NCBI RefSeq assembly: GCF_027579695.1
Contig: NC_083571.1
Location: 36,236,943-36,300,942, forward strand
DNA length: 64,000 bases
Source: Neoarius graeffei
Taxonomy: Eukaryota; Chordata; Actinopteri; Siluriformes; Ariidae
Direction of reading: 5' to 3'
Below the pieces are notes generated by a model. The model saw only the letters and a list, made by a program, of their open reading frames with translations. It made no database searches and was not told the DNA's origin. The first letter of the stretch is position 1. Every line of letters begins with the position of its first letter. Of the stretch, positions 4,237 through 56,233 are shown in pieces. Made by a program: the position numbers and the translations under genes.

Positions 4237-4244
4237 CTTCAGAC

Positions 4245-5216: not shown

Positions 5217-5436
5217 AAATGACTTCAGTTCTCCTTTAAACTTGCGTTATTTCTTAATTAACGTGTTATTCAGTTACGTTTTTGGTTTTAGTAACCTTAT
5301 ATCGTGACTCATTGGCAACGAATTGCAATTAAATATTATACTTATTGGCTTATTCGGTTTTCAGCCATGTTGAATTTGGTTCATTTGGTCCACAGCAGGT
5401 GTCGCTTATCCGCGCGATCTTCACGTGACTTAGAAG

Positions 5437-6275: not shown

Positions 6276-6283
6276 CTTAGAAG

Positions 6284-6708: not shown

Positions 6709-7121
6709 TACAACCCCAATTCCAAAAAAGTTGGCATGCTGTGTAAACTGTAAAGAAAAACAGAATGCAATAATTTGCAAATCATGGAAACCCCATATTT
6801 CATTGAAAATAGTAAAAAGATAACATGGCAAATGTTGAAGCTGAGAAATTTTATTGTTTTTTGAAAAATATATGCTCATTTTGAATTTGATGTCAGCAAC
6901 ACGCTTTAAAAAAGTTGGGACAGGGGCATGTTCACCACTGTGTTTCATCACCTCTACTTTTAACACTCTGTAAACGTTTGGGAACTGAGGAGACCAATTG
7001 CTGTAGTTTTGAAAGAGAAATGTTGTCCCATTCTTGCCTGATATACAATTTCAGTTGCTCAACAGTTCGGGGTCTCCTTTGTCATATTTTGCACTTCATA
7101 ATGCGCCAAATGTTTTAAATG

Positions 7122-8274: not shown

Positions 8275-9183
8275 TAAATGGGAGACAGGTCTGAACTGCA
8301 GGCAGGCCAGTTTAGCACCCTGACTCTTTTACTACGGAGCCATGCGGTTTTAATATGTGCAGAAAGCAGTTTGGCATTGTCTTGCTGAAAGAAGGAAGGC
8401 CTTCCCTGAAAAACATTTTGTCTGGATGGCAGCATATTGCTCTGAAACGTGTAAATATCATTCAGTATTAATGATGCCTTCCCAGATGTACAAGCTACCC
8501 ATGGCATGTGCACTAATGCCCCCTCATACCGTTACAGATGCTGGCTTTTGAACTGTACACTGATAACAAGCCGGATGGTCCCTCTCCTCTTTAGCCTGGA
8601 GGACGTGGTGCCCATGATTTCTAAATAGAATTTCTACTTTTGATTCATCAGACCTCGGGACAATTTTCCACTTCGCCTCAGTCCATCAAAAAAGAGCTCG
8701 GGTCAAGAGAAGGTGGCAGTGTTTCTGGATATTGTTTATATCTGGTTTTAACTTGCATTTGTGGATGCAGTAATTAACTGTTTTCACAGACAATAGTTTC
8801 CTCAAGCATTCCTGACCCCATGCAGTGATTTCCAATGCAGACACGTGTCTGCTTTTAATGCAGTGTCTCCTGAGGGCCTGAAGATCGCAGGCATCCAATG
8901 TCAGTTTTCAGCCTTGTCTCTTGTCTACAGAGATTTCTCCAGATTCTCTGAATCTTTTAATGATATTATGGACCATAGATGATGTGATCCCCAAATTCTC
9001 TGCAATTTTACATTGAGGAACGTTATTCTTAAATTGTTGCACTGTTTGCCTACGCAGTTTTTCCACTGAATGGTGAACCCTGCCCCATCTTTTGCTTCTG
9101 AGAGATTCAGCCTCTCTGGGATGTTCTTCCCCAATCATGTTACTGACCTGTTGCCAGTTAACCAAATTATTATTTTTTATCAT
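8250..9183 (-). pseudogene. Degraded Tc1-like transposase
   Basis: 9183-8908 reads as the N-terminal helix-turn-helix region (VPQCKIAENLG and [18 protein letters not shown]). 8898-8686 and 8513-8250 are displaced fragments of the following parts, the last with FFQQDNAKLLSAH, WPACSSDLSP. Frameshifts and the insertion before 8275 destroy the frame. Confidence 0.7.
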
Positions 9184-9421
9184 TACACAACTTTTTCAGT
9201 CTTTTGTTGCCCCTGTCCCAACTTTTTTAAAATCTGTTGCTGACATCAATGTCAAAATGAGCATATATTTTTCAAAAAACAATGCAATTTCTCAGTTTCA
9301 ACATTTGATATGTTGTCTTTGCACTATTTTCAATGAAATATAGGGTTTCCATGATTTGTAAATTGTCATATTCTGTATTTGTTTTACACAGTGTCCCAAC
9401 TTTTTTGGAATTGGGGCTGTA

Positions 9422-9609
9422 AAAAAAATTTGCCTTCAGTTCCCCTTTACGCCGGTGAATAACACGCACGTTTCAACTTTAATTTAAACACCTTGTAACT
9501 GATTTGCGTGTTTATGCATATTCATTAATTATTAATGAGCTACATTTTATTCCCTATTAGGAAACCATGAAACAGTTTATGACGAACTTAAAACGGCGAG
9601 GCTTAGCAA
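9422..9609. other. Short AT-rich spacer, no gene
   Basis: Unique-looking sequence between the Tc1-like element and the next hAT MITE. Nothing is recognisable. Confidence 0.4.
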
Positions 9610-9617
9610 ATACCAGA

Positions 9618-11015
9618 TAGAGGTCTGCGCGGGTCGGATTTTTCAGTCCCGTCCGCGCCCGCATTGTGCAGTCCCACTCCCGCCCGCGCCCGCAAAGAAT
9701 TATGATTTTCAGTCCCGCTCCCGCCCACGCCCACAAAAAAATTATGATTTTCAGTCCCGCTCCCACCCGCGCCTACCATATTTTGTCCCGCTCCCGCCCG
9801 CAAATCCCGCATGATGCAGACGTTCGCGTTATTTCTCAAGAAAGTTCTTGTCTTGACACAGCGTGATGGTGCCCCGCCCCCTACTTTGAGTGGATTTGAG
9901 CATAAATATCTACAGCTCACGTTTGTTATTATTTACCTTCTTTCTGAATTCAGCATGTAGTGTCTCTAATAATAATTAGTGCTGTCAAGCAATTAAAATA
10001 TGTAATCGCGAATCGCACATTTTTATCACATGAGAAACCATTGTAATTCTCTGATCAGCATAAAAAAGTGAATGGGCTTGCTTCGTACCAATGGTGTTTT
10101 CTTCTTTTTTTTTTATTGCAAAGCAGAGCTAGTAAGAGAAGTGAATTGATTTACTTGTTGCGTTAGTCTACAACTTTAATCAGAGAGACAGATTACACAG
10201 TGACGGTAGGCTTGACTCAATGCTATCCCAGAAATCCTTCCTGTAATATGCAAATTTGGCTGTCCAATCAGAGGCGGCCAAATTTGCATATTACAGGAAG
10301 GATTTCTGGGATAGCATTGAGTCAAGCCTACCGTCACTGTGTAATCTGTCTCTCTGATTAAAATTGTAGACTAACTCAAGCAGTAAATCAATTCACTTCT
10401 CTTACTAGCTCTGCTTTGCAATAAAAAAAAAAACACCACACACCACCATTGGTACAAAGCAAGCCCATTCACTTTTTTATGCTGATCAGAGAATTACAAT
10501 GGTTTCTCATGTGATAAAAATGTGCGATTCGCGATTAAATATTTTAATCGCTTGACAGCACTAATTATTATTAGAGACACTACGTAACTCAAGCAGTAAA
10601 TCACTTCATTCATGGTTCTCTTGCTAGCTGGGTGTGAACTGCGAGTCATTAGAGTGATCAAAGAATTTCCCGTTAGGGTGATCAATGGCAAATTTAAGAT
10701 GCCATTCCTCACTCAATCTGGCAATCTGACTCTCTCTGTAAATTTAGGCATCTTAAAATGTTTTTATTAATGCCAAATAAAATATCCAGCACAAATTATA
10801 TATGATAGACACAAATTAATAGCTTATAAATTTTAGTTAGCGGGACTGCAGCTTATCACCACTCCTGCCCGCGCCGCATATGTGCACTCCCGCTCCCACC
10901 CGCACGCGCATATGTGCACTTCCGGTCGCGCCCGCAATGAGCTTTCAAAATTTGTCCCGCGCCGCACTGCTTTGCGGCGGGTCCCGCGGGACTCCTGCGG
11001 GAGTGCAGGGCTCTA
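9618..11015 (-). mobile_element. hAT MITE, GCGGGAC-rich family, copy 2 (with fold-back inside)
   Basis: The ends are TAGAGGTCTGCGC (9618) and GCAGGGCTCTA (ending 11015). The 8 bp duplication ATACCAGA lies at 9610-9617 and 11016-11023. It is in opposite orientation to copy 1 (3290-4236), with the same GCGGGAC-rich ends. The 625 bp fold-back at 9958-10582 is inserted in it. The right end lies 35 bp before the first vps37a exon in this window, so the element abuts the splice acceptor region. Confidence 0.85.
9958..10582. repeat. Near-perfect 300 bp-arm inverted repeat (fold-back)
   Basis: 9958-10260 and 10277-10582 are reverse complements with only scattered differences, around a 16 nt loop. 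Within the arms, TAGTGCTGTCAAGC resembles the end of a known fish hAT family. The outermost 15 or so bases (TAGTGTCTCTAATAA) are also inverted. Transcribed in the vps37a intron, it would form a long double-stranded RNA hairpin. Confidence 0.88.
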
Positions 11016-11049
11016 ATACCAGAGCGTGTGTGTGTGTGCGCGTATGCAG

Positions 11050-11197
11050 TGTGTCTCAGCTGAAGGACATGAACGATAGCGAAGATGTGCTGCTGGAGTG
11101 TTTTGCGAGTCTGCCTCAGCTCAAGCAGGTCTCCAGTGATAAAGAAGAGCTGGCGAACAACATCATCACTGTGGCCAGTGAGTCGATACACAAGCAG

Positions 11198-11246
<49 letters not shown>

Positions 11247-11442
11247 GAATGTGAAATATGTGGTCATTGTGTTTGTGCAGAAAAAAATTTGCAGCTGGAA
11301 CCTCAGCTGGAAGGGAAGAGACAGGAGATGCTGTACAAAGTGAGTCCACACACACACCGCACCTTTAAGGAATACAGTACACACTAACTGCATGGTGTTA
11401 TGCGGTCATATGATTTCTTCTTGTGGTTTGAGCATGTGCCTT

Positions 11443-11494
<52 letters not shown>

Positions 11495-11994
11495 CAGTAT
11501 GAGCAGCTGACACAGATGAAGTCAGCGTTCCAGACCAAGATGCAGAGACAGCATGAGCTCAGTGAGGTAAACTATAGGCTGATTTCTTCACTCAATACAC
11601 CATCAGACCAAAAAAAAAAAAAATCTGAACGTCTGTCTCTCTTCACCTCTCTCTCGCCCGCTCCTCGTTCAGAGCTGCAGCCTGAGCGCTCTGCAGGCAA
11701 GGTTAAAGGTCGCGGCCCATCAGGCCGAGGAGGAGTCCGAGGAGACGGCCGAGAGCTTCCTGGAAGGAAAGATGGAGATCGACGACTTTCTCACCAGCTT
11801 CATGGAGAAGAGGACGGTACTGTCAGGGAGCTAGTGATAATGTATTACAGTTGGTTTAACTGGTTTTCTGGTTAGTTGGATTTCTGTTCCATCTTCTGTT
11901 GGATTTCTTGTAGCTTTGCCACAGCAGAAGAGCAAAAGAAGAAAAACTTCAGCAGTCCATGTCTGCGCACGGACAGTTCCCGACTGCGCACTAG
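11050..11994 (+). CDS. vps37a: vps37a, ESCRT-I subunit, 3' half (five coding exons)
   Basis: Coding exons are 11050-11177, 11281-11339, 11498-11566, 11673-11816 and 11914-11994 (stop TAG 11992-11994). All have AG/GT borders and join in phase. The product matches the C-terminal Mod(r) domain of VPS37A: LLECFASLPQLKQV, KNLQLEPQLEGKRQ, YEQLTQMKSAF, KMQRQHELSE, SALQARLKVAAH, FLEGKMEIDDFL, FMEKRTLCHSRRAKEEK, each close to the human protein as I recall it. The Mod(r) coiled coil packs with TSG101 and VPS28 in ESCRT-I, which sorts ubiquitinated cargo into multivesicular endosomes. The N-terminal UEV-like domain and linker are not found upstream in the window. The first exon begins with the last base of a split codon, so this is a partial gene. 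Two acceptors are preceded by TG repeats. Confidence 0.93.
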
Positions 11995-12005
11995 ACTCAC
12001 TACCG
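11995..12005 (+). other. vps37a: Probable 3'UTR start and donor of a 3'UTR intron (vps37a)
   Basis: Eleven bases after the stop, TACCG|GTGCGT offers a 5' splice site that would pair with the acceptor before 15242. A junction this near the stop would not be expected to trigger nonsense-mediated decay. Confidence 0.45.
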
Positions 12006-12353
12006 GTGCGTTTCAGACCGACGCTTCTTCTCATCTTCATCACTTTTTTTTTTTTTATACGAGTTCTCATAAATATAAACGACTAATACGGCTGCTGTAG
12101 ACGAATTAGATTAGACAGCAAGTCGTTGGTTTTGGTTTTACTGGTTAATTAGACGGGCAGGGTGTTCAGTGGATGGACATGTCGATGAGGAGAGTTGCTG
12201 GTTAACTAGTTGGTGAGTGGGTGGTTGTGTCAGTCAGATGGTTAGTGAGACAGTACATGGGTGGTTCGATGGATAGTTAGGAGTTGAGTGGGATGTTGGT
12301 TAGTTGGCGAGTGGGTAGTTACTGTTGGTTTAAAGGATCGCTGGTTAATATGA
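12006..12353. repeat. Degenerate GGTTAGTTGG-type short repeat
   Basis: The intron sequence from about 12120 is built of imperfect GGTTAGT / TGGTTGG / GATGGTTAG words. The same texture resumes at about 13320-13600 and 15010-15160. The two inverted-repeat elements between these stretches appear to have inserted into one original low-complexity array. Confidence 0.55.
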
Positions 12354-13301
12354 GAGCCGTTCCACCGAATTAGTGCCGTTTCCGTCCCTAGAAAATTATA
12401 TGTATAAATGCGCATAAAAATGTACTTTTAAAATACATTTCCTTATTACGCAGAATGTCCTGCACATTGATCTGATTTCAAATTTAAGATATATAATTGT
12501 AAGGATTAATAAAAACGACCTAAAACACTGAAAAATAGCATGTGTTACCTGTCCCCGCACTCTAACTCTATACTTAACTATGAAATATTATGATTAAAAT
12601 CCTTCAGAAACAGTATTTCTTTTGCACTGTTGTGTGACTCCATATCCTATCCATGGTTTAAATCTATTTTTTTCATAAGAAATCCACAATATCTTAGTTA
12701 AAATACACATTTTAGTCGTGTCCCTGGGTTTTCACTCAGTCCTGTTACCCAAACATATTACCCCATCTGACAAATTTGGAGCATTCCATAAATCTCATGC
12801 TCAACAGGAAGTTACATCAGCTGTGTCTTCTGAAGGCCATGGGAAGACCAAAAGTTAGTTCTCTCATTTACTTTTCTGTATATTTGATGATTTTTTAACT
12901 TTGACTGATAAGGTCAATGTCAACATACTGTCCTGTTACTTAAATTATTTCTTAGATGATATTTGTTTATTTTAAAAATACAGATTTTTGGTAAATCACT
13001 AGAATGTGCCAAGTGTGGTCATGCTATTAGCGATGACGCCATGTGGCTTAATTCCATGTATTAGCTAATCCTAGGCTAAAAACTCAGTCCTGTTACTCAT
13101 ATAAAGAGTATGCAGCCATCTTTGACTTCCAAACCTTGTAAAAAAATAAATAACGTAGCCTGAGGTTGACCAATACACATTTTGAATAGTTAAATGTGTG
13201 TGTTGTTATAATCAGTGTTGAAAAGATATAACAAATTTAAGTTTAATTTGGGAGTGGTACAACAAGCAAATGGCACCCATTCGGTGGAATGTCCCATGAT
13301 A
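12354..13301. mobile_element. Non-autonomous DNA element with imperfect TIRs
   Basis: The left end has CCGTTCCACCGAATTAGTGCC. The right end has the reverse complement of GACATTCCACCGAATGGGTGCC. These are clear but imperfect inverted repeats of about 25 bp. The interior is AT-rich and non-coding. A target duplication is not evident, so the superfamily is unassigned. Confidence 0.5.
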
Positions 13302-13609
13302 GTGAGGCTCGCTTGTTATAATTAAATGGTTCGAGGGTGGTTCCTTAGGTTCGATGGTTCCATTCGATTAGATGTTAGTTCTAATGAATTGGTTGGATGA
13401 TTAGTTATGAAATTATTAGCAGTGGCTGTTATGTGGTTAAATAACGGGTTGTTGGACGGTTGGACAGTTGGCTGGTTGCGTGGTGGTAGATGGTTAGAGT
13501 AGATTGTTATATTGGTTGGTTCGATAATGATGTAGGTGAGTAAGTTTGGATATTTTGATAATCCTCCGAGTTGATATTTGAATTGTTACACGGTTAAGTG
13601 GTTGTTTAA

Positions 13610-15008
13610 TGCTGTGTTCACACTTATACCGGTACGAAAGTGGTATAACTGTATCGATACAAAGTATACCGGTACAGTTTAGTGCATCTGTCCACACTAG
13701 CGAGAAATGTTTGCAGTTTTCTTTCGCGGAAGTTGAAATGCGCGTGCGCAAAATGTTTCCGTGGTTACCGAGTAACTTCCTTCCGAGAATATGGCGGATG
13801 AAACAATGTGTGTGTGCTTTTTGTTGTCAATGTACAGTCTGTATTTCTGGTGGTCATTTATTCAGTCGAATCGTATAAAACGCGCGAGGCAGTTGAGAAA
13901 GAAACAAAGAAAACGAATCTCCCTTTCTCCTCCCTCACTTTCTCCCTTTTCCCCTCTTCCTCCTTTCTTCCTCCCTCCTTTTCCCCCCTTTCTTTGCTCC
14001 ATGTAGCTCCACGGTCATTTTGACGTTTTATTTACAGCTGGAAAGCACGTGCGTATTGCCGGAAGACGTAGGAATGGTTCATTGTGCATGCGCATTATAT
14101 TTGTATCGATACAGAGCCGCTTCATCTGTCCACACTACAGCGAAGCACTACAGTACCGATACTGTACCGGTACGAAACCCATACATTTGTGGGTTTCGTA
14201 CTGATACAGTTAGGCCAAGTTTACATTAGACCATATCAGCGGATCATCAGATTAACGTTTTTAAAACGATTAACGTGCACACAGCAACGCCAATACACGA
14301 TTCGCGTGCACACAGCAACACCAGTACACGGATACGCTCGGCTCCGCAGGCATCCTGCGTTCCAAATCACTCCACCCTGAACAGCGAGTGCCCTCTGGAG
14401 GGTGCGCACTCCGGCCTTGCGCAGCTCACAGAGCGCGCGAGTGAAGCGCACGAGCCACGATTCGGGACTGAGCCACTGTGTGTGTGATCCCAGCGCATAT
14501 CACTTACCACTTGCAAGTGGAAGGATGGCAAGCCTAAAGACAATCATAACTACACAATGGGCAGTATTTGCATCAGTATTTGCAGTATTTTCATACTTTT
14601 ATACTCTTTAATGAAAGGTGATACAAGGCGGAAGTCCGCGCCGTTTTTCAGCAGTCGCGTCACATGACCAACGCCAGCGAATCAGGAAGGTGGATGTCAC
14701 AGTGACGTTGTCCAATGACGACGCCAGCTAGAGCTCAGCACAGCGTATCCGCGTATTCTCAATATTTACACAGCACCGGAGCTGACACGATCTGGATTGA
14801 ATACGTGGACCCTGGCGGATTCCCGTTTCCCGGCGTTTCCAGGCGGTTTAATGTAAACGGACAGTGCATCCACGAAGAAAACGAGACAGATACGGTCTAA
14901 TGTAAACTTGGCCTTATACCGCTACAGTACCGGTATAGTTGCTAGTGTGGACAGGTGTTGCGGTACGAAAGTAGTATCGTATCGGTACAAAATCCCTAGT
15001 GTGGACAG
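13610..15008. mobile_element. Outer element with TACCGGTACGAAAG-type repeats, host of a nested element
   Basis: Stretches of CCGGTAC / CGGTACGAAAG / GATACAG and CTGTCCACACTAG recur at 13616-13705, 14100-14210 and 14917-15008, partly inverted. They flank a TC-rich middle and the nested 14213-14913 element. This looks like a non-autonomous DNA transposon. Exact ends are uncertain. Confidence 0.45.
14213..14913. mobile_element. Harbinger-like non-autonomous element (TTA target duplication)
   Basis: GGCCAAGTTTACATTAGACC at 14213-14232 is repeated exactly in inverse at 14894-14913. The 701 bp element is flanked by TTA at 14210-14212 and 14914-14916. Three-base TWA duplications and GGCC-like starts fit the PIF/Harbinger group. 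There is no transposase. It lies inside the element at 13610-15008 and thus inside the vps37a 3'UTR intron. Confidence 0.62.
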
Positions 15009-15241
15009 GGTACAAGTTAGACAGTGGGAGGTTTTGTTGGTTGAATAGGTAGAAACTAATTGGTCAGATGGTTGGATAACTCGTTAAGTTGAACCATGGT
15101 TATTAATTAGGTGATGGGGTTGTAAGTGAGAAGAATGGTTAGTTAATTGGACAGTTATTCTTCACTAAGATTTGCTCCAATATTTGTCACTTTGCAGTTT
15201 TTAAAAATAAGACCCTGTTCTCCATTTGTTTTTCCTCCCAG

Positions 15242-15680
15242 GTTTCGGTACTAAAGCAGAACGCTCAGCCTCATGACAAACACACAGCCATGCAGATCCA
15301 CAGTCCTCCTGATACCGAGTGGAACCTGAGAGTCAGCTAAGGAGCAGATGCTGAATTTACTGAGTAAAGAAACAACCGACGGTGTTCTGGAGCCGTTTGG
15401 CGTTCCAGAGGGGCTTCAGCGAGGCTGTAGCAGGGTGTTATTTCAAGTATTAGGCAGCCTTTTTGCGTTCTTATTAGCACACACTTTGAATATTGATAAG
15501 GGTTTCCTTTTGGTTTGGACCTTCCTTGCACTTGACAGAGAAACTGAAATTTGCCAATGCTGCCAGACACCACAAAAAAATACTGTATTTAATAATGTTG
15601 ATGATAGGCTTTATTATAATCAGACCTTGTATTATAAGTTTATTTAATTTGATAGGCTAATAAAATGTTTCCAGTAATCA
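15242..15680 (+). other. vps37a: Probable last (3'UTR) exon of vps37a with poly(A) signal
   Basis: A strong acceptor (TTTTTCCTCCCAG) precedes 15242. The following 440 bases have no transposon resemblance and end shortly after AATAAA at 15659-15664. Position, strand and spacing fit the terminal untranslated exon of vps37a. No transcript evidence is available, and it could instead be an unrelated short gene end. Confidence 0.45.
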
Positions 15681-16326
15681 CTCTGTCAGAGATGTCTGAG
15701 TTTTTTGTTTGTTTTTTTTGGCCGAAAAATAGCCAAAAGAAAACATGGATTGAAGAATGTTTAAATCATCTGCTGGTGCGTTGAGGAGTGTTTTCAAAAA
15801 GAAGAAACGTCATCCAAGGAGCACAAGCTGAACAGTCATAGGCTACGCTCCAAACCGTTTCCAGACAAGTCACGTGTGAAAGTGTCCGATAAGTGTACAC
15901 CTACTGTACGTCATCTTGTTTTGTTGCATACGCTGGGCATGTCCATTTTATAGAGTTTGTGTTTTTGGTGTCCCAAACTGTTTCACAGCCACCTCGATGC
16001 AGAAACCGTGTCTGTACTGTGTACAATCGTCCAGCTTTTCTTCTGGTACTAACGGGTAGGTTTCCGTTTCCACTGCAGGACTCCTATCAGGAACGCAGGA
16101 GGAACGTTTTACCTCCTGCTCCATTTTGCACCTAAATTGCCAGTTTTCTGGAACGGTTCAGGAAATGTCAGTTTCTCGTTTAAGATCCCCTTAGTTCCAG
16201 GGAAACTTTGTCAGAAACATATATTGTGTACCAATAATCTTAAATTTGGTCTCATCGTATAATTTCACAAGCGTTTTGGTCTCCAGGTGCCAGAAAAAAT
16301 TTCATCCTGCTCAGGCTCGCAGGGGA
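15681..16326. other. Intergenic, nothing recognised
   Basis: Unique-looking sequence between the vps37a poly(A) signal and the Tc1-like element. Reading frames are short and without motifs. Confidence 0.4.
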
Positions 16327-17775
16327 AAGTGGTGCTTGAAAGTTTGTGAACCCTTTAGAATTTTCTGCATAAATATGACCTAAAACATCAGATTTTCACA
16401 CAAGTCCTAAAAGTAGATAAAGAGAACCCAGTTAAACAAATGAGACAAAAATATTATACTTGGTCATTTATTTATTGAGGAAAATGATCCATTATTACAT
16501 ATGTGTGGCAAAAGAGCAGGGATCTATCAAAGTCTGACCTTCACAACACGTTTGTGGAAGTGTATCATGGCACGAGCAAAGGAGATTTCTGAGGACCTCA
16601 GAAAAAGCGTTGTTGATGCTCATCAGGCTGGAAAAGATTACAAAACCATCTCTAAAGAGTTTGGACTCCACCAATCCACAGTCAGACAGATTGTGTACAA
16701 ATGGAGGAAATTCAAGACCATTGTTACCCTCCCCAGGAGTGGTCGACCAACAAAGATCACTCCAAGAGCAAGGCGTGTAATAGTCGGCGAGGTCACAAAG
16801 GACCCCAGGGTAACTTCTAAGCAACTGAAGGCCTCTCTCACATTGGCTAATGTTCATGAGTCCACCATCAGAAGAACTCTGAACAACAATGGTGTGCATG
16901 ACAGGGTTGCAAGGAGAAAGCCACTGCTCTCCTAAAAGAACATTGCTGCTCGTCTGCAGTTTGCTAAAGATCACGTGGACAAGCCAGAAGGCTATTGGAA
17001 AAATGTTTTGTGGACGGATGAGACCAAAATAGAACATTTTGGTTTAAATGAGAAGCGTTATGTTTGGAGAAAGGAAAACACTGCATTCCAGCATAAGAAC
17101 CTTATCCCATCTGTGAAACATGGTGGTGGTAGTATCATGGTTTGGGCCTGTTTTGCTGCATCTGGGTCAGGATGGCTTGCCATCATTGATGGAACAATGA
17201 ATTCTGAATTATACCAGCCAATTCTAAAGGAAAATGTCAGGACATCTGTCCATGAACTGAATCTCAAGAGAAGGTGGGTCATGCAGCAAGACAACGACCC
17301 TAAGCACACAAGTCGTTCTACCAAAGAACGGTTAAAGAAGAATAAAGTTAATGTTTTGGAACGGCCAAGTCAAAGTTCTGACCTTAATCCAATGGAAATG
17401 TTGTGGAAGGACCTGAAGCGAGCAGTTCATGTGAGGAAACCCACCAACATCCCAGAGTTGAAGCTGTTCTGTACGGAGGAATGGGCTAAAATTCCTCCAA
17501 GCCGGTGTGCAGGACTGATCAACAGTTACCGCAAACGTTTAGTTGCAGTTATTGCTGCACAAGGAAGGGGGTCACACCAGATACTGAAAGCAAATATTGG
17601 ATCATTTTCCTCAATAAATAAATGACCAAGTATAATATTTTTGTCTCATTTGTTTAACTGGGTTCTCTTTATCTACTTTTAGGACTTGTGTGAAAATCTG
17701 ATGATGTTTTAGGTCATATTTATGCAGAAATATAGAAAATTCTAAAGGGTTCACAAACTTTCAAGCACCACTGTA
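16327..17775 (+). mobile_element. Tc1-like transposon, nearly intact
   Basis: The ends read GTGGTGCTTGAAAGTTTG at the left and CAAACTTTCAAGCACCAC then TGTA at the right. They continue into sub-terminal inverted repeats with the CATTTGTTTAACTGGG motif. One transposase gene fills the interior. The left tip is slightly degenerate. The same family occurs at 30046 and 49502. Confidence 0.9.
16567..17625 (+). pseudogene. Tc1-like transposase with a single nonsense codon
   Basis: The frame runs from ATG 16567 to TGA 17623 without a shift (352 codons), broken only by TAA at 16933 (codon 123). The related copy at 30046 has a lysine codon there. The N-terminal paired-type HTH carries KEFGLHQSTVRQIVYKW and the GRPTKITPRA linker. 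The DDE core has WTDETKIEHFG (first Asp), [11 protein letters not shown] (second Asp) and [13 protein letters not shown] (Glu, 34 residues on). All three catalytic residues are present. It would cut and paste its own element at TA sites. One base change separates it from an open frame, so its loss is recent. Confidence 0.9.
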
Positions 17776-18740
17776 CATCCGCAGCAAAAAGTTCATATCG
17801 ATAAATCAAATTTAATCTTGATGTAGTTCCTCTCAGGAAGGTAACAACCGGGCGGAACGGTTCCTACTAATCCTGCATCATCCCTTCGAAGTCCCCGCCG
17901 TAGGTTTTATCCTCCGATGAAGTTTAAATGTTTGGGTGAGAAATCCCTGTCAGAAGCACAATAACTCAAACGTGTTGTATAGTGAATATGAAATTTATTC
18001 TACTGTTGTACAGTGTTTTACATACGATTTAACAGACCTAAAACTTCGCACAGTACTGTATTGGAGTATGTATAAAGTCTGGAAAGTTTCCTCGTTCCAA
18101 ACTTGGAGGCTTGCAGCCCTTATTTACACTCGGGTTGGAAAAAAGTCCTGTAGGGTTCAGGGCACCATTTGCGGAAAGGGTGAAAGGGGTCGACTGAGCT
18201 TTGGTGGTTATGTGTGTATGTTTATGTAGATAATATCTGATTTAAAATATGAAATGCAGAAGATGATCAAAGCTGAAATGATCTAATTTGCACAATGTTC
18301 CCTTGATCCCAAATGTATTTAATCAACCGATGTGTATTTGTTCTTCACTTTAGCACTGAAGTGAACATGTTTTGCTGAGGTAAAAGGTTTAAAAAAAAAA
18401 CATAGCCAAACATCCCCAATCCATTGGTTTCCGTTATAATGAGAACCGGCTTAAGGTTTTCCATCAGGAACAATCTGAAACATCAAATTCATACGCAATT
18501 CAACAACCATCAGAAACGCGCTGAACCTGTTCGGAACTCGACGACGTGTCTAATCAGGAAGGTGCTATTTGCACTCGGGTGTCTGTAGCCAACCAGCATA
18601 GTAAACCCAACCTGGTTATGAATAGCTGATGTATGACTATTCTCACCCAGACACAAATATTATGATTATTAATTTGAGCAGGGTGGGGTACTGGGAAAAT
18701 TGTGTACTTTTGATTGATCTCTAAACCATTTATTAAACTA
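17776..18740. other. Intergenic, nothing recognised
   Basis: AT-rich unique-looking sequence between the Tc1-like element and the SINE, in the gap between the convergent ends of vps37a and mtmr7. No ORF with family resemblance. Confidence 0.4.
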
Positions 18741-18750
18741 ATATTTAAAT

Positions 18751-19130
18751 AAAGGCGGCACGGTGGTGTAGTGGTTAGCGCTGTCGCCTCACAGCAAGAA
18801 GGTCCGGGTTCGAGCCCCGTGGCCGGCGAGGGACTTTCTGTGTGGAGTTTGCATGTTCTCCCCGTGTCCGCGTGGGTTTCCTCCGGGTGCTCCGGTTTCC
18901 CCCACAGTCCAAAGACATGCAGGTTAGGTTAACTGGTGACTCTAAATTGAGCGTAGGTGTGAATGTGAGTGTGAATGGTTATCTGTGTCTATGTGTCAGC
19001 CCTGTGATGACCTGGCGACTTGTCCAGGGTGTACCCCGCCTTTCGCCCGTAGTCAGCTGGGATAGGCTCCAGCTTGCCTGCGACCCTGTAGACCAGGATA
19101 AAGCGGCTAGAGATAATGAGATGAGATGAG
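18751..19130 (+). mobile_element. tRNA-derived SINE, full length
   Basis: A full copy of the family, flanked by a perfect 10 bp duplication ATATTTAAAT (18741-18750 and 19131-19140). This defines the ends: AAAGGCGGCACGG at the head and TAATGAGATGAGATGAG at the tail. Confidence 0.92.
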
Positions 19131-19344
19131 ATATTTAAATTTAAAAAAATCAGCACTGTTTTTGATAGTTCTGAAGACTCTGTGCTCATAAATATTTAGT
19201 CATAAAACAGTCATTTGAAAATAATATAAATAAATTAAAATACTATTTTTAACCCTTGTCTTAACCGACATCCTGCAATCCGATGACTGTCCAGTGATCA
19301 ACTATACAGTTATCCTGTCTCTATTTTTTTTTATTTTAAATCTG

Positions 19345-22300
19345 TCAGGCGCTCGCATAAGCTGCCTCGTCCAGATGAGGGTCTTTTGCGTCATCGCACG
19401 AGCTGGAGGCGTGGCTGCTGAGGTCGGCGACGCCTGACTCGAGGTCGCTGCAGACAGAAAGGTCGTCAGCGTCGGTGGCTTTGGGGGTCGTGGGTGATTT
19501 CAGTGGTAGTGTGAAGTAGGACGGGGTGTGGCTTTCTGTCCCGGCAGCAGGGCAGATGCAGGTGGGGTAATCCTGAGGGTTGCCGACCTCGTTTCCTTTC
19601 AGCAGCGTCCGGTGCGAATGTTCAGTCGCTCTGTTGTTCTTCATTTTTCTCGTTTTGTTCTCGAGCAGCTGAGCAAGTCTCTACAGCGGGGCAGAGAATA
19701 CGAGTTAGAGTAAAGCGTTTTATTTCATTCAGCACGTATGATCGTTAACACAAAAATCTGGAACCAAAAAGGGACAAAAAGTTTTACACACACACACGGG
19801 GTTCTGGTTCGGATCATCTAGACATATAGTTTTTAAGATCTGATTCCGTATGTTAACAAATTTTCCTTTCAAATGAGTGAGAGGTCACAGGAATTCTGTC
19901 TACAGTACAGTAGCACTGAGGATGAGCTTGAACACCAAGACATTACACGATTTCAGGTGTATTTATGTTCGTGAAGGCGGGACATACACATTCTAGACAG
20001 CATTTCATTGGATGCTAATGCAGTACGTGGCAGCCCAGGGGGCGTGGCTAACTGTAAACGTGTGTTTTTACGAAGCGAGTATGTATGCCTTGTCCATCGT
20101 CGTTCTCCCGTGGTACCTCCTGGTGGGTGTTAAGCTCCTCCTCCAGCTGCTGTGACTCCTCCTTCACGGCGGTCAGCCAATCAGAAGGTGACTGATGCGA
20201 GGCCCTGCCCCTTTCCACAGAACTGTACATGCCTTTCCAGAATCTGGAGTCACACGCAGGATAAACGTTTAATTTTAAAACAATGGATACAGTTTCTCAG
20301 CTTAACGTTAGTTGATCCCAGGTAGCTGTGAGATATTTTTAGCCATTAGCGAGCTACTGAAGGCTACAGCAAGGTGTTAAAATCTTTTCTTTTCTTTTGG
20401 GAGAAGGCACTCACTTGAAGCAGTAGGGCGTGGTCAGGGGTCTCAACACGCCCTGAGTCTGACTGTGGTCTGATCTGTACAGAGGATTGATAAACTCGGA
20501 TCTGTTCTCCCAAAGACACGGCCAGAGCGAGTGAGTCCGCTCGCGCATCCTACACACACACACACACACACGGGTCAACATTCCGGTTGCTCAGTTTGTT
20601 GGAATCTTATTTTCACATGAACGTTCGGACCTCAGGTCCCGGCGCTCTCTCTGGCTGTTGCCGATGAAGTTGCCGTACTGGCAGGAGTGGACGTGTGTGT
20701 GCAGCTGAAGGAGGAAGCGCTCGTTAAACTCAAAGGCGCAGGGGAACTGCTCCATCAGCTGCCAAACACACTCCAGGAACTGGTCCAGAACAGGGGACAC
20801 CTCTTTAGGATCTCCGTCCAGGTGAGCGTACCTGCAGGGTGAAGAAAAAAAGTTCCACATGACTGCGTTACACTCCGGTATGTAAAGTTCATTATGTTTC
20901 TTTTTAATATTAAGTGAAAAAAAATTTTTTACTTCATGCTTTTGATTTAATGCATTTCAGAAGGAAAAAAAAATCTACTTCCTGTGCTCTACATACAGGA
21001 GGAAAGGAAAGAAAGTTCTGACCTGTAGAAGTTTTAAATGTACAGTTATTTACACATTTCAATGTACAGATGTTTATATATCCAGGTGTTTTGATTTCAG
21101 TAGGCAGATATTTAGATATGCAGATGTTTCAAATGTACAGTTTACGTGTTGATGTGCAGATATTAATATGTACAGATGTTTAGATCATTTCCAAAGATGT
21201 TTAGACATACAGATATTTCGATGTCCACACATACAGATGTTTCGAATATACAGTTGTTTACATGCATCTGTGCAGATGTTTAGATGTGCAGGCATTAATA
21301 CATACAGATGTTTAGGGGTTTGCTTTGATGTTTCAATTTCAGTTGTGCAGATGTGTAGGCAGATCTTTTGATGCACAAACGTTTTTGGATGTACAGATGT
21401 TTAGATGTGCACACGTTAATACGTACAGATGTTTAGAGGTACAGATGTTTTGATTTCAGTTGTACAGATGTTAAGACATACAGATTTTGATGTGCAGAGA
21501 TACAGATGTTTCAAATGTACAGTTGTTTACATGTGTTGATGTTCAGATGTTGAGATGTACAGATGTTTCGATGTGCAGACATTAATACATACAGATGTAT
21601 GGATGTTTGCATGGTTTAATGTACAGATTTTTTTATCTCATTTTTACAGATATTTAGACGTAGATATTCCGATGCGCAGACATACAGATGTTTCAAATGT
21701 ACAGTTTACATGCGTCTGTGCAGATGTTTAGACGTGCAGACGTTAATATGTACAGATGTTTACATCTTTAGATGTACAGATGCTTTGATGTTTCAATTTC
21801 AGCTGTGCAGATGTGTAAGCAAATGTTTTGATGTACAAATGTTTTTGGATGTACAGACGTTTAGATGTGCAGACATTAATACGTACAGATGTTTCGATTT
21901 CAGTTGTATGGACGTTAAGACAGACAGATATTTTGATGTGCAGAGATGCAGATGTTTCAAATGTACAGTTGTTTACATGTGTTGATGCGCAGATGTTTCG
22001 ATGGGCAGATATTAACACATACAAATGTATGGATGTTTTGCATGTTTTAACGTACAGATGTTTGGACGTACAGATATTCTGATGTGCAGACATACAGATG
22101 TTTCGAATGTGCAGACGTTAATAAGTACAGATGTTTAGAGGTACGGATGTTTACGTCTTTTAGATGTACAGATGTTTTTGATGTTTCAATTTCAGTTGCG
22201 CAGATGTGTAGACAGATGTTTTGGATGTACAAACCTGTGTGAGAACTTGTGTCCAAACGACACCCAGTCTTTCTCTATCAGCACCTACAGACACACAGCC

Positions 22301-22625
22301 AGATGTTATATGAGAGCAATGCTCACTGATCCAAACCACATATATAAAAACACCGAGTGGGAGGGGCTAGAAATGACACACGCTGAGTGGGCGGAGCTTC
22401 ATCTTCATTAACATGGTGTTTGAGTGCTATAGTGATGTTTGTGGTGCGTTATGTCGCAGATGTTGGCGTGTTTATCCCGTGTCGTCGGCGTTATTACCAT
22501 GAATCCTTTAATGGTTCTGTAGTACGGGTCCAAGAGCACGCTGGCTACGGAGCAGGTCTGAGCCGTACGATCCCATCCATCAGAGCAGTGTACCAACACA
22601 CTCACCCCTTCCTCTGCTATAGCCT

Positions 22626-22656
<31 letters not shown>

Positions 22657-25600
22657 TCATGTGGATTGTGTTGCACTTCCCGTTTTTAAACACAGCTTCA
22701 CCAATCTGAGCTGAAACCTCAACCTTTGGTTAAATCTGAGATCACTTCTTCCCTTTAAAAGAGAAAAGTCATTGCGCTCAGTGAAACCTCCTCATCTGAC
22801 CCGAGAGAAACATGAACTTCTGCAGTTTACTGAAAATGATTCCAGTCTCGGCTGAAAGTAACGGAGTGAGCGTTAATCGGTTTACTGTGAAACTAAATAA
22901 AAGTGGCATCAGTGAAATCATGATTATCTTTCAAGCAGGTTTACAGTTTGGTGCAGAAGTGGAGAGTAACGAAGTACATTTACTTGAGTACTGTATTTAA
23001 GTACACTTCGAGTATCTGTACTTTACTTGAGTATTTTTTTTTTTGGAAACTTATGACTTTAACTTCACTACATTTGAAAGGCAAATATCATATTTTTAAC
23101 TCCACTATGTTTCTATCAGGTCCTCGTTACTATGAAGCAGCCTTGAAAGTGGATGTTTTTTTCTTTTCTTTTCTAAAATGTGATTGATTTTTTCGCAGGC
23201 GACACTGAGACAGCCGATCAGTAATCACTAGGGTCACGTCACATCCATAGACTGTATAAAATCAAGTTCGATGATTTCTCAGCAGCGTTATTTAAACACG
23301 ATCAGTTGATGGCAGAATGGAAGGAGGCGGTTCTTCTGGGGAATGCACGCACCCACGGCCCATGAACCCATGTTTCAGTTTTCTGAAAGGAATAAACAGT
23401 CGTTTAATTTTAAATATTTGCCGAAAACGAACCACATCACGGCCTACAAAACTCGCCATCCGACCTGCGGGAGCATATTGAGGTATATAAACGTTTTATT
23501 CCAAGAGAAAGCTTTCAACGAAGTTGTCTGTACTTTTAGAGCTAGCGATAACGTTGCAATAGCTATGCGGTCTGGTTAGTCACATGACTTTCTATGGCTT
23601 TGCCCGCCAAGTTGCCATCGCCTTGTCCACAGCTAACGTTAACACATAGCTAGTTAACTTGGACACTGTTAGTTAGCATGTAAAAACGGAGTTACGCTAA
23701 CATGAATAACGTTAACTTATCTGAAGTCCTTTCAGAAATATGTTTGAGCATAATCTTGCCAAATAAACAGAATGTAGAAATGTTTCTTTTCTAGTAGCGT
23801 TAGCTACCCAATATGACTAAGAGTTTGAAAAGAGTTTGCTAGAAGTCAGGTGGAGTTTCACTGACTAGCTAGCTTAACATTAAACCACCATGATGGCACA
23901 GCACGCATTCATTTTGTGAATTCACATTTCTGTCTTTGGTAACGGCGTTAGGTTTTGTAAACGTTGTGGCAATAATACAACAATGCATTGACAGAAAATG
24001 TACTTTTAATACTTAAGTATTTTTAAAAGCAAGCGCTTCAGTAAAAATGTAACTGGACAATTTTCACTTGTATCGGAGTAACATCTGACCAGTGGGATCT
24101 GTACTTTGACTTAAGTAATGAAGTTGGGTACTTTGTCCACCTCTGGTTTGGTGTGACGTCAGTAACGCATAAAAACTAATTTAATCCGAGTTAAAGTCTT
24201 ATTTATCGTCTTACTGCACAAAACCTAGTCTAAATCTTCATTTATTTATAAAAACGTGACAGATTTAAGCTAAGGCTGTTTATCTCATGGAGCTCTGAAG
24301 TGTTAAAGGGCTGATGACACGAACATGACTCTATGCAATTTCTTAAATAAACTATACAACATGGCAAACATGTTAGATTTCTGTTATAATTACGTGAAAA
24401 GAAGCTGTTGTTACGCGAATATCCAACTTTTAATTGCACAGCGCAAGAAAACTGGGTCCGTGGCTCGCGGCCATGTTGTGACGTCAGCGGAAGAAAACGC
24501 TCTGGTTCACTGGCTGTTCTACTCTGGTTCTACTCAATGGAAATGGCGCATGAAAACGCCGGTGAACTCTCTAGTGCTAGCTCTTCCTCTTCTGGGAGTC
24601 TAGAATTGTGTTGATCTCTTCCGAATAGAATCTATGATAGCCTACCCTCTTTACCCTTTGCCTCTCGTTGCTAGGCGGCAGTTACATGAAAGCCGCAAGC
24701 TTTCACAAGCAAATACAGGACTGATATCACGCCGACTTTATGATTACATTTATGATTATCATGTAGAATCTATAGCTCTACGTACCTTTATCTTATGTCG
24801 TTTCACAACACATGTTCTGACAGGAGGACTGTCTTTGGATCCGGCATAGCTACTAGTAGACCCTCTCCGGAATACTGGCAGTGTTGCCAGATTGGGAGGT
24901 TTCCCGCCCAGCTGGGCTGTTTCAAGTGCATTTTGGTGGGTTTTGAACATATTTTGGGCTGGAAAACGTCAGCAGTATCTGTTGCCAGATACTGCTGACG
25001 TTTTCCAGCCCAAAATATGTTCAAAACCCACCAAAATGCACTTGAAACAGCCCAACTGGGCGGGAAACCTCCCAATCTGCCAACACTGTGTAGGCACTGC
25101 TGATGGTAGTAACACACGTTTGTGCTGAACTGAACACCCAAGATATTCCTTTAAGCTGGGAAGGGTGTCAAAACAATCCAAATCGAAGTGTTCAGAGCAC
25201 AGGACGGATGTTGGTGAGGGCTCCCACTTGTCACGAGTGCGCCTGACTTGCTTCACCCACTTCGCATGCAGCTCGGGATCTCTGGGAAACTTGAATAAAC
25301 TTACCCCATCCTTGTGGGTTTTGGAGCAAAAGCCGGCAACACAACGTGAAGGCATAATAACTATATATGTATATGTGTATAATAAAAATACTAATAATGA
25401 TAAACTGAACACCTGTTGCATCAACAACAAACTGGTAAGTGAGGAGGAAGGTTCTTTCGCTGACGTCATATAGCTCCTCCTCCTTTTTCGTCTCCTGGGT
25501 GCTGCAGCCCCGTCAAATTTGCCCAAATAGCTGCTTTTTTTATCATAACTTGTAAAATAGGCGCCTTCGTGAATTAATATATGGATCATCGGGAATTACT

Positions 25601-28600
25601 TTTTATGTTATAAAACATCGCCAAAGATGTCAAAAACGTGTCATCAGCACTTTAATAGACCAGTCTTAGTCACTACACACACACACACACACACACACAC
25701 TGCTGGTGTGTACCTTGGCGATGAAGACTCCGGCGTCCAGCACTGCTTTGATGTGTTTGAGCCACCCGGAATTCTCCAGACCCCACAGGAAGTCTCCCAT
25801 CGACGGAGACCTGAGATCACCGACTGCAACAGAGAACCGACGGCGTTGATTCATTTTCTATAACAGCAGTTTGTACTCGTGATCGTTTCTATAGCGACGG
25901 CTCACTGATATGGACTCGTACGTCCGAATCAAACGCTCCGGGACGTGCTGTTATAGGAAAACGATCGACTTGCGGGCGCGAACAGAAACTCATTGTTTTG
26001 ATGTCACTACACACCCTCGATGAGTTTCTGCTGGCTGCTCCTCATCACGTGGATGTTCTCGATGCCGATGAACTGCAGGCGGATGTTCGTGTAGTGGTCC
26101 TCGTTCTCATAGCCTTTTCCTGCCGCCCGATTGGCCATCGCGTTCAGCTAGACACACACACACACACACTTCATATATTGAAAGTATAAATATAGCTTTT
26201 ACACACTAATGCATTTCCGTGAGCCCTTACCTTCGGCCGTGTGTCCACCACGTACATGTACTCACTGGCGGGATTGGACTTCATGATGGCCTGCAGCATC
26301 TGTTCATCCTCCGGAGAACGAGTGCTGAAACCGGAGAGAGGCTGACTGCTGCGGCACACTGCAGCCTGGGGGGTGGGGAGGATAGAGAGGGGGGAATTTG
26401 AGACAGTTGGGTGTAAAGTCACTGATTTGTGCTCTGTAAAGTGCACTTTGTAGGCAGCATGGGGTGGATGAATGGAGAAATGGCACATACACCAGTGTCC
26501 CTGTGGAAGTAGGAGAGAACAGGAAGTCGCCCTCGGCTCCTGAATTTGGCGCTGCCCACGATAATGGCGGGAGATGCTGACTTCGGCACGAACAGCTCCG
26601 AGGGGTACGTATCGCACACCTGTCTCCCACACACAGAAGTAGTAGAAGAAAATACTTTTGGTGAATGGTAACATTACTCAGTACTCAGTACTCACTCTGT
26701 ACTCGTGGTTGGCCGGAGTGACGTGCCAGAGGTTGCTGGGAATTCCCATCCGGCTAAACTCAGAACGCAGATCCAGGAAACTCCAGGCCTTTTCTCTTTC
26801 CTCTTTAGCCACGCTGGGCAAGTACGAGAAGCAGAAGAGCTCTCCGTAACGCTCTGAGAGGGGAAGATAGAATGAGAAACAGAGAGCTGAACTAGTTTTG
26901 TCGTTCCGTCATATGATCAGATCTGTGATTGGCTGCTCAGTTTCAGTGTAAGCTCCGCCCATTTTGACCTAATCACCTGCCAAAGTCAAGATTTCTGTGT
27001 GTGTCCTCACCTGGATGGGACAGGTGTGCGAGTGACTCCTGGACGTCCAGACATTCTCTCTCAAGTGGCAACACAAACTGAAACACCTGGAAGTTCTTAC
27101 ATCGTAGGATGAGATGACTTCCTGTGGGCGTGGCCGGGGTGCGATCGACACTACTGATCAGACTGTGCAGGAGCTAACACACACACACACACACACACAC
27201 TACTCAGTGATTCTCATCATTACAGATATTCTGGAATGTTCCGTCACTCTACAGGAAGTTGGTGTAATTACAGGGAATCCTGACTTCCTGTTGCTTGTGC
27301 AACGAGTCCTGTGCCACATGACATGAAAGAGGATGTTAGTCAGTTTTTACTTCCTACCCACGTCTCTTTGCGTGTGTCCGAGTTCTCTACGAAGATGGTG
27401 TGTGTGGAGGAGAGGTACAGCGTCCCCACCGTGGACTTGCGGGGAGTCAGCCTGTCGATCAAACGCACGTTCTCCACCTGCCAGGACGCAGGAACACACA
27501 GGAAGCTCGATTTCACACGACACGATACAATTGTGACTGACAGAAGCTCGAACCTTCTGCATCACCACGTGAAATGAAACACTTTATTAACCTCAAGGAC
27601 ATTCACAATGAAAAAGTGACTTCAAATCTGAATGGATGGCAATCAAACAAGAAAACATGCTCAAAATAACAGTGAATAATGTCGTTAAAACTAATACTTC
27701 AAATCTTCAATAATTCAAATGTTCGTGATCGTTTCTATAGCGACGGCTCACTGATACGGACTTGGACGTCCGAATCAAACGCTCCGGGACGTGCTGTTAT
27801 GGGAAAATGATCGACTTGCGGGTGCAAACAGAAGCTCATTGTTTTGATGATGTCACTACACACCCTCGATGAGTTTCTGCTGGCTGAAAACCAGCAAAAA
27901 AATAGCCAAAATATCATGAAAAAATATTTCAGGAACAAATATGAAAAATAGAAACGTAACAATACAACATAGAATGCATTACAAATATATTACATTTATG
28001 GTTAATGTCAATAAACAGGTAATATGTTAAAAAACATTCATAGTAATGACCTGAAATCATTTTGGAGTCGATGTAATAATAATAATAAAATAGGCACAAA
28101 AAAAGGATGGACTGATTCATGAATGAATTAATTAATTAATGAATGAAGGTAAAATAATAAATAAAATTTATTTAATAAATTTTATTTATTAAATAAATAA
28201 ATTTAAATAAATTTAGTAAAATAAATTAATAAACAAGTAAACAAATCAAAATAAATACACCATTGAAGAGAAAAAAAACATTTATGAAAATAAATCAGAC
28301 AGACAGGTCACGTGATCTCTGCAGCCAGTAGAATAAAAAGAGGATAATGAAGGGAGGGGTGGAGTAAGTGGGGGGGAGGGATGAGTGGGGAGGATGAGTG
28401 GGGGGGTGAGGGATGAGGGGGGTAAGAGATGAGAGGGGAGGGGGGGTGATAAGGGATGGGGTAAGAGATGAGAGGGGGTGATAAGGGATGGGGGGGTGAT
28501 AAGGGATGGGGGTAAGAGATGAGAGGGGATGGGGTAAGAGATGAGGGGGTGATGGGGGGTAAGAGATGGGGGGTAAGAGATGAGAGGGGGTGATGGGGGT

Positions 28601-29583
28601 GATGGGGGGTAAGAGATGAGAGGGGGTGATGGGGGTAAGAGATGGGGGGGTAAGAGATGAGAGGGGGTGATGGGGGTAAGAGATGGGGGGGTAAGAGATG
28701 AGGGGGTGATGGGGTAAGAGATGAGAGGGGGGTAAGAGATGAGGGGGTAAGAGATGAGGGGTGATGGGGTAAGAGATGGGTAAGAGATGGGGGGTAAGAG
28801 ATGGGGGGGTAAGAGATGAATAAGAGATGGGGTAAGAGATGAGGGGGGGTAAGAGATGGGGGAGTAAGAGATGGGGGAGTAAGAGATGAGGAGGGTGTAA
28901 GAGATGGGGGGTAAGAGATGGGTAAGAGATGGGGGGGTAAGAGATGGGGGGTAAGAGATGGGGGGGGTAAGAGATGGGGGGTGTAAGAGATGGGGGAGTA
29001 AGAGATGAGGGGGGTGTAAGAGATGGGGGGGTAAGAGATGAGGGGGGTGTAAGAGATGGGGGGGTAAGAGATGAGGGGGGTGTAAGAGATGGGGGGGTAA
29101 GAGATGAGGGGGGTGTAAGAGATGGGGGGGTAAGAGATGGGGGGTAAGAGATGAGGGGGGTAAGAGATGGGTAAGAGCTGGGGGGGTAAGAGCTGGGGGG
29201 GTAAGAGATGGGGGGTAAGAGATGAGGGGGTAAGAGATGGGGGGGTAAGAGATGGGTAAGAGATGAGGGGGGGTAAGAGATGAGGGGGGGTAAGAGATGG
29301 GTAAGAGATGAGGGGGGGTAAGAGATGAGGGGGGGTAAGAGATGGGTAAGAGATGAGGGGGGGTAAGGGGGGGGTAAGAGATGGGTAAGAGATGGGGGGG
29401 GGGGGGGGTTGAAGGTTGTGGGCTGCGAGCCAATAACGGCCTGTCGCTGCGCTCGTGCTGCCAGATGGCGCATTCTGTGCATCCACCCGGTTCCTGTAGA
29501 CGCGTCAGAGCGCGAGAGCAGCCGGAATGCTGCTGCTGCTGCTGCGCGAGCTCCGGTACCTTCGGTGTTCTGATGTTCTCCAT
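19345..29583 (-). CDS. mtmr7: mtmr7, myotubularin-related phosphoinositide 3-phosphatase (complete, 14 coding exons)
   Basis: Exons in transcript order: 29583-29560, 27477-27358, 27173-27011, 26853-26696, 26619-26491, 26365-26231, 26147-26015, 25823-25714, 22623-22498, 22284-22235, 20831-20631, 20549-20415, 20243-20117, 19680-19345. All borders are AG/GT and all phases agree, giving 648 codons (human MTMR7 is about 660). Residues 1 to about 100 form the PH-GRAM domain ([24 protein letters not shown]). The phosphatase domain carries [30 protein letters not shown] and the P-loop HCSDGWDRT, with Cys337 and Arg343. A coiled coil ([14 protein letters not shown]) lies near residue 530. The family hydrolyses the 3-phosphate of PI3P, and MTMR7 also acts on Ins(1,3)P2, in partnership with the inactive MTMR9. 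The coiled coil serves dimerisation. The catalytic residues are intact. The C-terminal 100 residues are Ser-rich and variable. Confidence 0.95.
21050..22230. repeat. Degenerate ACAGATGTTT minisatellite in mtmr7 intron 10
   Basis: About 1.2 kb of imperfect 10-30 bp words based on TACAGATGTTTAGATGTGCAG with ATTAATACGT variants. Longer blocks such as CAAATGTACAGTTGTTTACATG recur at about 21129, 21243, 21514, 21694 and 21957, so there is a higher-order arrangement. Several short ORFs on both strands are by-products of the repeat. Confidence 0.85.
22498..22623 (-). CDS. mtmr7: mtmr7 exon 9, catalytic P-loop
   Basis: Forty-two codons, phase 0 at both ends. The exon encodes the Cys-x5-Arg signature in [14 protein letters not shown] and the following [11 protein letters not shown] helix. 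Active myotubularins share this Cys/Asp/Arg pattern, whereas pseudophosphatase members lack the Cys. The acceptor is preceded directly by a long (TG)n run on the transcribed strand. Confidence 0.93.
22954..24145. mobile_element. hAT MITE with CAGAGGTGG-type ends
   Basis: The left end is CAGAAGTGGAGAGTAACG and the right end CTTTGTCCACCTCTG. The exact 8 bp duplication GTTTGGTG lies at 22946-22953 and 24146-24153. Sub-terminal parts are rich in AAGTAC / ACTTAAGTA words. There is no transposase. It lies in mtmr7 intron 8. Confidence 0.88.
24879..25088. repeat. Perfect-type fold-back, about 100 bp arms, 4 nt loop
   Basis: The arm 24879-24981 is the reverse complement of 24986-25088 with only a few mismatches, around TTGC. 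The arms contain TTTGGTGGGTTTTGAACAT and CCAGATTGGGAGG. It sits inside the Kolobok-like element, directly against the end of the THAP frame. Confidence 0.88.
25089..25355 (-). pseudogene. THAP-domain exon (89 codons) of a transposon
   Basis: From ATG 25355 the frame gives [39 protein letters not shown] and a terminal LLPSAVPT. This is the C-x4-C ... C-x2-H zinc-binding pattern with the FP and AVPT motifs of the THAP domain. The domain binds specific DNA. The frame then runs into the fold-back at 24879-25088, so the rest of the protein is missing. It may have been the first exon of a longer transposase gene, and no splice donor is obvious at the border. Confidence 0.7.
25877..26037 (-). repeat. 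Source of a local duplication (exon 7 3' end plus intron 7)
   Basis: This 161 bp segment is repeated in direct orientation at 27723-27886 in mtmr7 intron 1. It contains the last 23 bp of exon 7 (26015-26037), its 5' splice site and 138 bp of intron 7. Confidence 0.9.
27723..27886 (-). repeat. Duplicate of exon 7 donor region in mtmr7 intron 1
   Basis: A direct duplicate of 25877-26037 with a handful of substitutions and one 3 bp insertion. On the mtmr7 strand it presents the exon 7 tail CTCATCGAGG followed by GTGTGTAG, so it places a decoy donor in intron 1. Confidence 0.88.
27887..28349. other. AT-rich intron 1 sequence, nothing recognised
   Basis: The segment contains AATTAATTAATGAATGA and TTTATTTAATAAATTTTATT runs, with a short palindrome near 28160-28200. 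No coding signal. Confidence 0.4.
28350..29413. repeat. G-rich GGGGTAAGAGATG minisatellite in mtmr7 intron 1
   Basis: About 1.06 kb of units of 13-22 bp, variants of GGGGGGTAAGAGATGAG on the + strand. The array ends in a run of about 16 G. On the mtmr7 transcript it is a CTCTTACCCCCCAT polypyrimidine array. All three - strand frames stay open over it for about 440 codons because the repeat lacks stops. These are not genes. Confidence 0.92.

Positions 29584-56193: not shown

Positions 56194-56233
<40 letters not shown>

Follow-up and report, generated by a model that had tools for sequence, protein, structure and literature searches.

UG repeats in the place of the polypyrimidine tract at predicted splice acceptors of mtmr7 and vps37a in Neoarius graeffei

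Splice acceptors built on UG repeats are already known as a phenomenon from zebrafish and people. The AC-GT bridging introns of zebrafish are said to have been described by Lin et al. 2016 (Genome Res). As given in excerpts of PMC6093180, about 10% of zebrafish introns carry a (GT)n tract before the acceptor that pairs with an (AC)n tract after the donor, making U2AF unnecessary; excerpts of PMC7404189 and PMC9198270 contain shorter statements on the same class. Here, acceptors of similar appearance are described in a 64,000-nucleotide (nt) stretch of the Neoarius graeffei genome (contig NC_083571.1, positions 36,236,943 to 36,300,942; hereafter the window), in which TG tracts, read as UG in RNA, stand before exons of mtmr7 and of its neighbour vps37a.

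The 3' splice site of human APOA2 (apoA-II), reportedly the subject of Mercado et al. 2005, is said to have a GU repeat that replaces the polypyrimidine tract. In the human CFTR exon 9 acceptor, which has the form (TG)m(T)n, a T tract is retained between the TG repeat and the AG. The UG repeats at APOA2 splice sites are mentioned as TDP-43 sites, and the UG repeat of CFTR exon 9 as bound by TDP-43, in excerpts of PMC3985631. The locus described here is like APOA2 in that a UG repeat holds the place of the polypyrimidine tract before a coding exon, use of the acceptor being inferred here from coding continuity; it differs in that mtmr7 has four acceptors of this form and the neighbouring vps37a one or two, and in that APOA2 is a TDP-43 target, whereas here TDP-43 is a candidate factor. 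The likeness to CFTR exon 9 lies in a UG repeat near the exon's acceptor; unlike CFTR, the mtmr7 repeats reach to 1-3 nt from the AG and leave no T tract, so that the CFTR analogy drawn in a first-pass annotation of this DNA holds for the repeat and fails for the T tract.

The acceptors counted are the 13 of mtmr7 and the five of vps37a, 18 in total; some comparisons used 17, without that of vps37a exon 11914. The tracts concerned are as follows.

27178..27199, minus strand: (TG)11 then TTAG, before mtmr7 exon 3 (first base 27173)
26153..26168, minus strand: (TG)8 then TCTAG, before mtmr7 exon 7 (first base 26147); intron of 83 nt
22627..22652, minus strand: (TG)13 then TAG, before mtmr7 exon 9 (first base 22623), which encodes CSDGWDR
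20553..20570, minus strand: (TG)9 then TAG, before mtmr7 exon 12 (first base 20549); intron of 81 nt
11445..11488, plus strand: (TG)22 then CGCGCGCAG, before vps37a exon 11498
11027..11038, plus strand: (TG)6 then CGCGTATGCAG, before vps37a exon 11050, ending 11 nt away
25676..25699, minus strand: (TG)12, in mtmr7 intron 8 next to the donor of exon 8, starting 14 nt in
11199..11242, plus strand: (TG)22, from 21 nt into the vps37a intron 11178-11280, beside the donor
11347..11356, plus strand: (CA)5, from 7 nt into vps37a intron 2 (11340-11497), with predicted pairing to the acceptor (TG)22

Tracts of at least eight TG units end no more than 10 nt from the exon at five of the 18 acceptors (mtmr7 exons 3, 7, 9 and 12, and vps37a exon 11498), and tracts of at least six units lie within 12 nt at six of 18. 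The first-pass annotation had put the share at about six of 18, which the looser threshold returns exactly, and had placed (TG)n next to the AG at the four mtmr7 acceptors, where each was indeed found; it had also given two vps37a acceptors TG/CG-rich runs, of which 11498 has (TG)22 and 11050 only (TG)6. Among all other AGs on both strands of the window, a tract of eight or more units is present at 11 of 7933 (0.139%; Fisher p 1.4e-10 against the acceptors) and one of six or more units within 12 nt at a fraction of 0.00240 (Fisher p 9.2e-12). These tests, like the placement trials below, followed on the sighting of the pattern and cover two genes in one window.

The defined introns hold seven TG tracts of eight or more units, five at acceptors and two beside donors; the two donor tracts, in the vps37a intron 11178-11280 and in mtmr7 intron 8, had been missed in the first-pass annotation. 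Since mtmr7 intron 8 has (TG)12 at its donor besides its acceptor tract, it carries UG tracts at both ends. All seven either start no more than 21 nt from a donor or end no more than 10 nt from an acceptor. When the seven are placed at random within their own introns a mean of 0.69 falls at acceptors, and five were never reached in 20000 trials; five were likewise never reached in 20000 trials of placement over 16 introns, the 17th (vps37a intron 4) being without a tract. The arrangement is therefore strongly non-random in the window. It is extremely improbable that microsatellite density by itself set the TG tracts beside acceptors by chance; such repeats are common, with 18 TG/CA tracts of eight or more units in the window, yet the Fisher comparison with other AGs and the absence of five acceptor tracts from any random placement both speak against it, as does the position of all seven long intronic tracts near a donor or acceptor. 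A shorter (TG)5 does sit inside mtmr7 intron 13, 106 nt from the acceptor. For position in this window, chance from density is rejected on the Fisher and placement results, which also answers, as far as the window goes, the objection, foreseen in the first-pass annotation, that the frequency might be no higher than microsatellite density predicts. No study counting UG tracts at fish acceptors was noticed among the literature matches listed.

The explanation favoured here, with a probability of roughly 0.6, is that the acceptors are of the ordinary GT-AG kind, with a UG microsatellite standing in for the polypyrimidine tract and working as a weak tract of spaced U. All 16 introns considered (vps37a intron 4 left out) start with GT and end with AG, and they would be handled by the major spliceosome. 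Over positions -20 to -3 the five tract acceptors have 9.4 pyrimidines of 18 against 13.2 of 18 in 12 others (p 0.006; the 11050 acceptor excluded), which agrees with the first-pass claim that the tracts replace a classical pyrimidine tract; the U content over the same positions is 8.4 of 18 against 7.2 of 18 (p 0.29). As (UG)n has U at every second position, it would act as a weak U-containing signal, and because it contains no AG it would offer no false acceptor between the branch point and the exon. Several observations speak for this explanation: mtmr7 read through these acceptors is one frame of 648 amino acids (aa), the U content is retained, and on the sense strand of 17 introns (8756 nt) there are seven TG tracts of six or more units and no CA tracts. 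The enrichment over other AGs and over random placement, the UG seeds at other acceptors, the predicted pairing in vps37a intron 2 and the human precedent of APOA2 also count in its favour.

The same composition bears on a neutral alternative, in which UG expansion is tolerated drift, other signals define the exons and the tract contributes nothing. With pyrimidines at about half (9.4 of 18) the tracts are poor by the usual consensus, as such drift would allow; the sense-strand bias of seven TG to zero CA and the retained U, however, suggest that the sequence still matters, and this alternative is considered distinctly unlikely.

A U-spaced tract of this kind has a plausible source in the other acceptors. 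TGTG is present in the last 30 nt of 6/12 non-tract acceptors against 11.1% of interior intron 30-nt windows, and TGTGTG in 3/12 against 0.7%; CACA is absent from the last 30 nt of all 12. Such a gradation in UG run length points to an origin of the long tracts by slippage from seeds in normal acceptors, and the UG tract has probably grown in this way from the short UG seeds present at many acceptors of mtmr7 and vps37a.

Several points weigh against the tracts as working polypyrimidine substitutes. Use of the tract acceptors is inferred from coding continuity. Of the tract acceptors 2/5 have a branch-like yTnAy motif 15-70 nt upstream, compared with 8/11 non-tract acceptors; the five tract acceptors have 19-63 nt free of AG upstream, and the mean length of this stretch is 32 nt in six tract acceptors (including 11050) compared with 44 in 11 others. 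As the AG-free zone averages shorter at tract acceptors, the tracts do not lengthen it, and together the branch-site and AG-zone comparisons do not favour the tract acceptors being strong sites as judged from these motifs. The seed test uses overlapping windows, which makes its p values approximate, and TCTC is found at 5/11 non-tract acceptors against 18% of intron-interior windows, which implies that seeds are not solely UG; enrichment of TCTC at acceptors is expected of pyrimidine tracts.

In common with this locus, the zebrafish AC-GT introns have a GT tract right before the acceptor, and the closest match to them is vps37a intron 2. This intron has an AC tract after its donor, the (CA)5, in addition to its (TG)22 acceptor tract; donor and acceptor are predicted to form a duplex of -48.1 kcal/mol, the best of 16 donors for that acceptor, and the fold of the intron has a z of -2.54 (100 shuffles). 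In the models, then, vps37a intron 2 fits the form of the AC-GT class, a point missed in the first-pass annotation. Sense CA tracts of four or more units number just two in the 16 introns, and both start 7 nt into the intron. The second is (CA)4 at 26996-27003 on the minus strand, in mtmr7 intron 3; with (TG)11 before exon 3 and (CA)4 after it, the complementary repeats flank an exon and not an intron.

It might be proposed that all of the tract introns belong to this fish class, the donor AC tract pairing with the acceptor GT tract and replacing U2AF2, as the predicted bridge of vps37a intron 2, the position of the two CA tracts and the share of about 10% of zebrafish introns given in the excerpts of PMC6093180 would encourage. 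Most of the mtmr7 tract introns do not bear this out. A CA tract is absent from introns 2, 6 and 11, and intron 8 has only GTACACACC near the donor, i.e., three AC units. The fold z values of introns 2, 6 and 11 are -0.07, -1.16 and +1.65 (intron 8 is too long to fold whole), and the own donor ranks 9, 7 and 14 among 16 donors for the acceptors of these three introns and 3 for that of intron 8, with a duplex of -26.7 kcal/mol. Over 16 introns the own donor-acceptor duplexes average -17.4, against -16.2 over all pairings, and no general signal came from folding the 12 short introns (those of up to 220 nt, 12/16, with 100 shuffles each). Some controls without a tract also score well: vps37a intron 3 has a fold z of -2.10, mtmr7 intron 1 a duplex of -31.7, and mtmr7 introns 3 and 13 also rank first of 16 for their own acceptors, so that duplex rank alone says little. 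By their repeats, one of the five tract introns is of AC-GT form (vps37a intron 2), three are not, and mtmr7 intron 8 is doubtful. AC-GT pairing is rejected as a general explanation on the missing AC partners, the folds and the duplex ranks, and its extension to all of these introns is held to be very unlikely; with the UG tract as a weak polypyrimidine substitute throughout, the tract of vps37a intron 2 could additionally pair with its donor AC tract as in zebrafish.

The tracts may alternatively be regulatory, with TDP-43 or CELF on the UG run competing with U2AF and repeat length serving as a dial, as in CFTR exon 9. In the excerpts of PMC3985631, about six UG repeats are the minimum for high-affinity TDP-43 binding and longer repeats are bound better, a minimum that tracts of 8-22 units exceed; excerpts of the preprint PMC12697283 give TDP-43 a picomolar affinity for (GU)6, so that the first-pass statement that UG repeats bind TDP-43 is in keeping with both sources for tracts of such length. 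The consequences of exon skipping differ along mtmr7. The sole CX5R of the protein, CSDGWDR at 337, falls in exon 9 (126 nt, codons 325-366), which is the phosphatase catalytic exon that it had been called; skipping of exon 9 or exon 12 keeps the frame, which would suit a regulated exon. Skipping of exon 3 or exon 7, in contrast, shifts the frame to an early stop and speaks against free cassette use. A regulatory role for the tracts is considered unlikely. Since exon 9 skips in frame and bears the sole CX5R, tuning of its splicing by repeat length is possible on the reading frame.

UG tracts acting as pUG folds, which take 12 or more uninterrupted UG repeats, would be a structural alternative. 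Counted as alternating runs, the tracts before mtmr7 exons 3, 7, 9 and 12 are 12, 9, 14 and 10 repeats long and that before vps37a exon 11498 is 22.5, with 13 and 22.5 at the two donors; runs of sufficient length are thus present at acceptors and donors both, including three of the five tract acceptors (12, 14 and 22.5). The remaining two, at 9 and 10 repeats, fall short of this length, and the pUG-type runs already described are from other species. Furthermore, the in vitro half-life of formation is at least 13 min according to excerpts of PMC12276007, which is slow for splicing, and TDP-43 binding prevents the fold, the two being mutually exclusive according to the excerpts of PMC12697283. 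A general role for pUG folds at these acceptors is judged highly improbable.

A broader proposal is that unpaired UG tracts are a common, general polypyrimidine-tract substitute in this lineage, distinct from AC-GT introns, at which a UG-binding protein recruits U2 snRNP instead of U2AF2; this is regarded as a speculative and rather improbable idea.

The exon calls on which the acceptor positions depend are drawn from two gene models.

19345..29583, minus strand: mtmr7 coding span, 14 exons, 648 aa
11050..11994, plus strand: vps37a exons to the stop codon, acceptors 11050, 11281, 11498, 11673 and 11914

The mtmr7 exons, which run from 29583 down to 19345 on the minus strand, join into the single 648-aa frame without an internal stop. 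By phmmer against solved structures the top match of the product is MTMR6 (2yf0; residues 1-510, 730 bits), followed by MTMR8, MTMR2 and MTMR1; Pfam finds a PH-GRAM_MTMR6-like domain and a myotubularin phosphatase domain. One open frame across 14 exons and the alignment to the MTMR6 structure support the exon calls. Within the MTMR6-8 group we take the gene to be mtmr7, on the human sequence and on synteny with the neighbouring vps37a. Relatives of mtmr7 were sought in collections of genome contigs and viral contigs, where 31 and 7 pattern matches were obtained, none of them a relative by tblastn. Part of mtmr7 intron 1 is taken up by a long G-rich minisatellite at 28371-29400, whose units measure about 15 and 33 nt, and an open stretch at 24972-25595 on the minus strand, in mtmr7 intron 8, resembles a THAP-type C2CH zinc finger in its motif.

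The vps37a exons with acceptors 11050, 11281, 11498 and 11673 encode the Mod_r domain, and this Pfam match of four exons supports their calls; a human probe (E 3e-8) brought out the fifth exon, with acceptor 11914, through which the frame stays open up to the stop. No upstream exons for the N-terminal UEV domain were recognised in window positions 1-11049 with human probes, the best E values of 0.08 and 0.03 being unconvincing; the N-terminal part may be beyond the window, may have diverged too far for these probes, or may have been lost. The 11050 acceptor has a yTnAy branch-like site at -34. The stretch at 10926-11015 is repeated, with 93% identity, at 3290-3379 on the other strand; it stops about 34 nt before exon 11050, so that the branch region of this acceptor may adjoin or come from a repeat. 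Elsewhere in the window, the minus strand has open stretches at 56093-57790, 47548-48629 and 50271-51074, which by their motifs resemble a long LINE-type reverse transcriptase stretch and several Tc1-like transposase stretches.

This locus suggests that AC-GT pairing does not account for every UG-tract acceptor. Acceptors made of microsatellites can change length fast, which links ordinary repeat variation to splicing; mtmr7, with four such acceptors and one of them before the catalytic exon, would provide a compact natural test of whether a UG tract serves as a weak polypyrimidine tract, a TDP-43 switch or a structural element.

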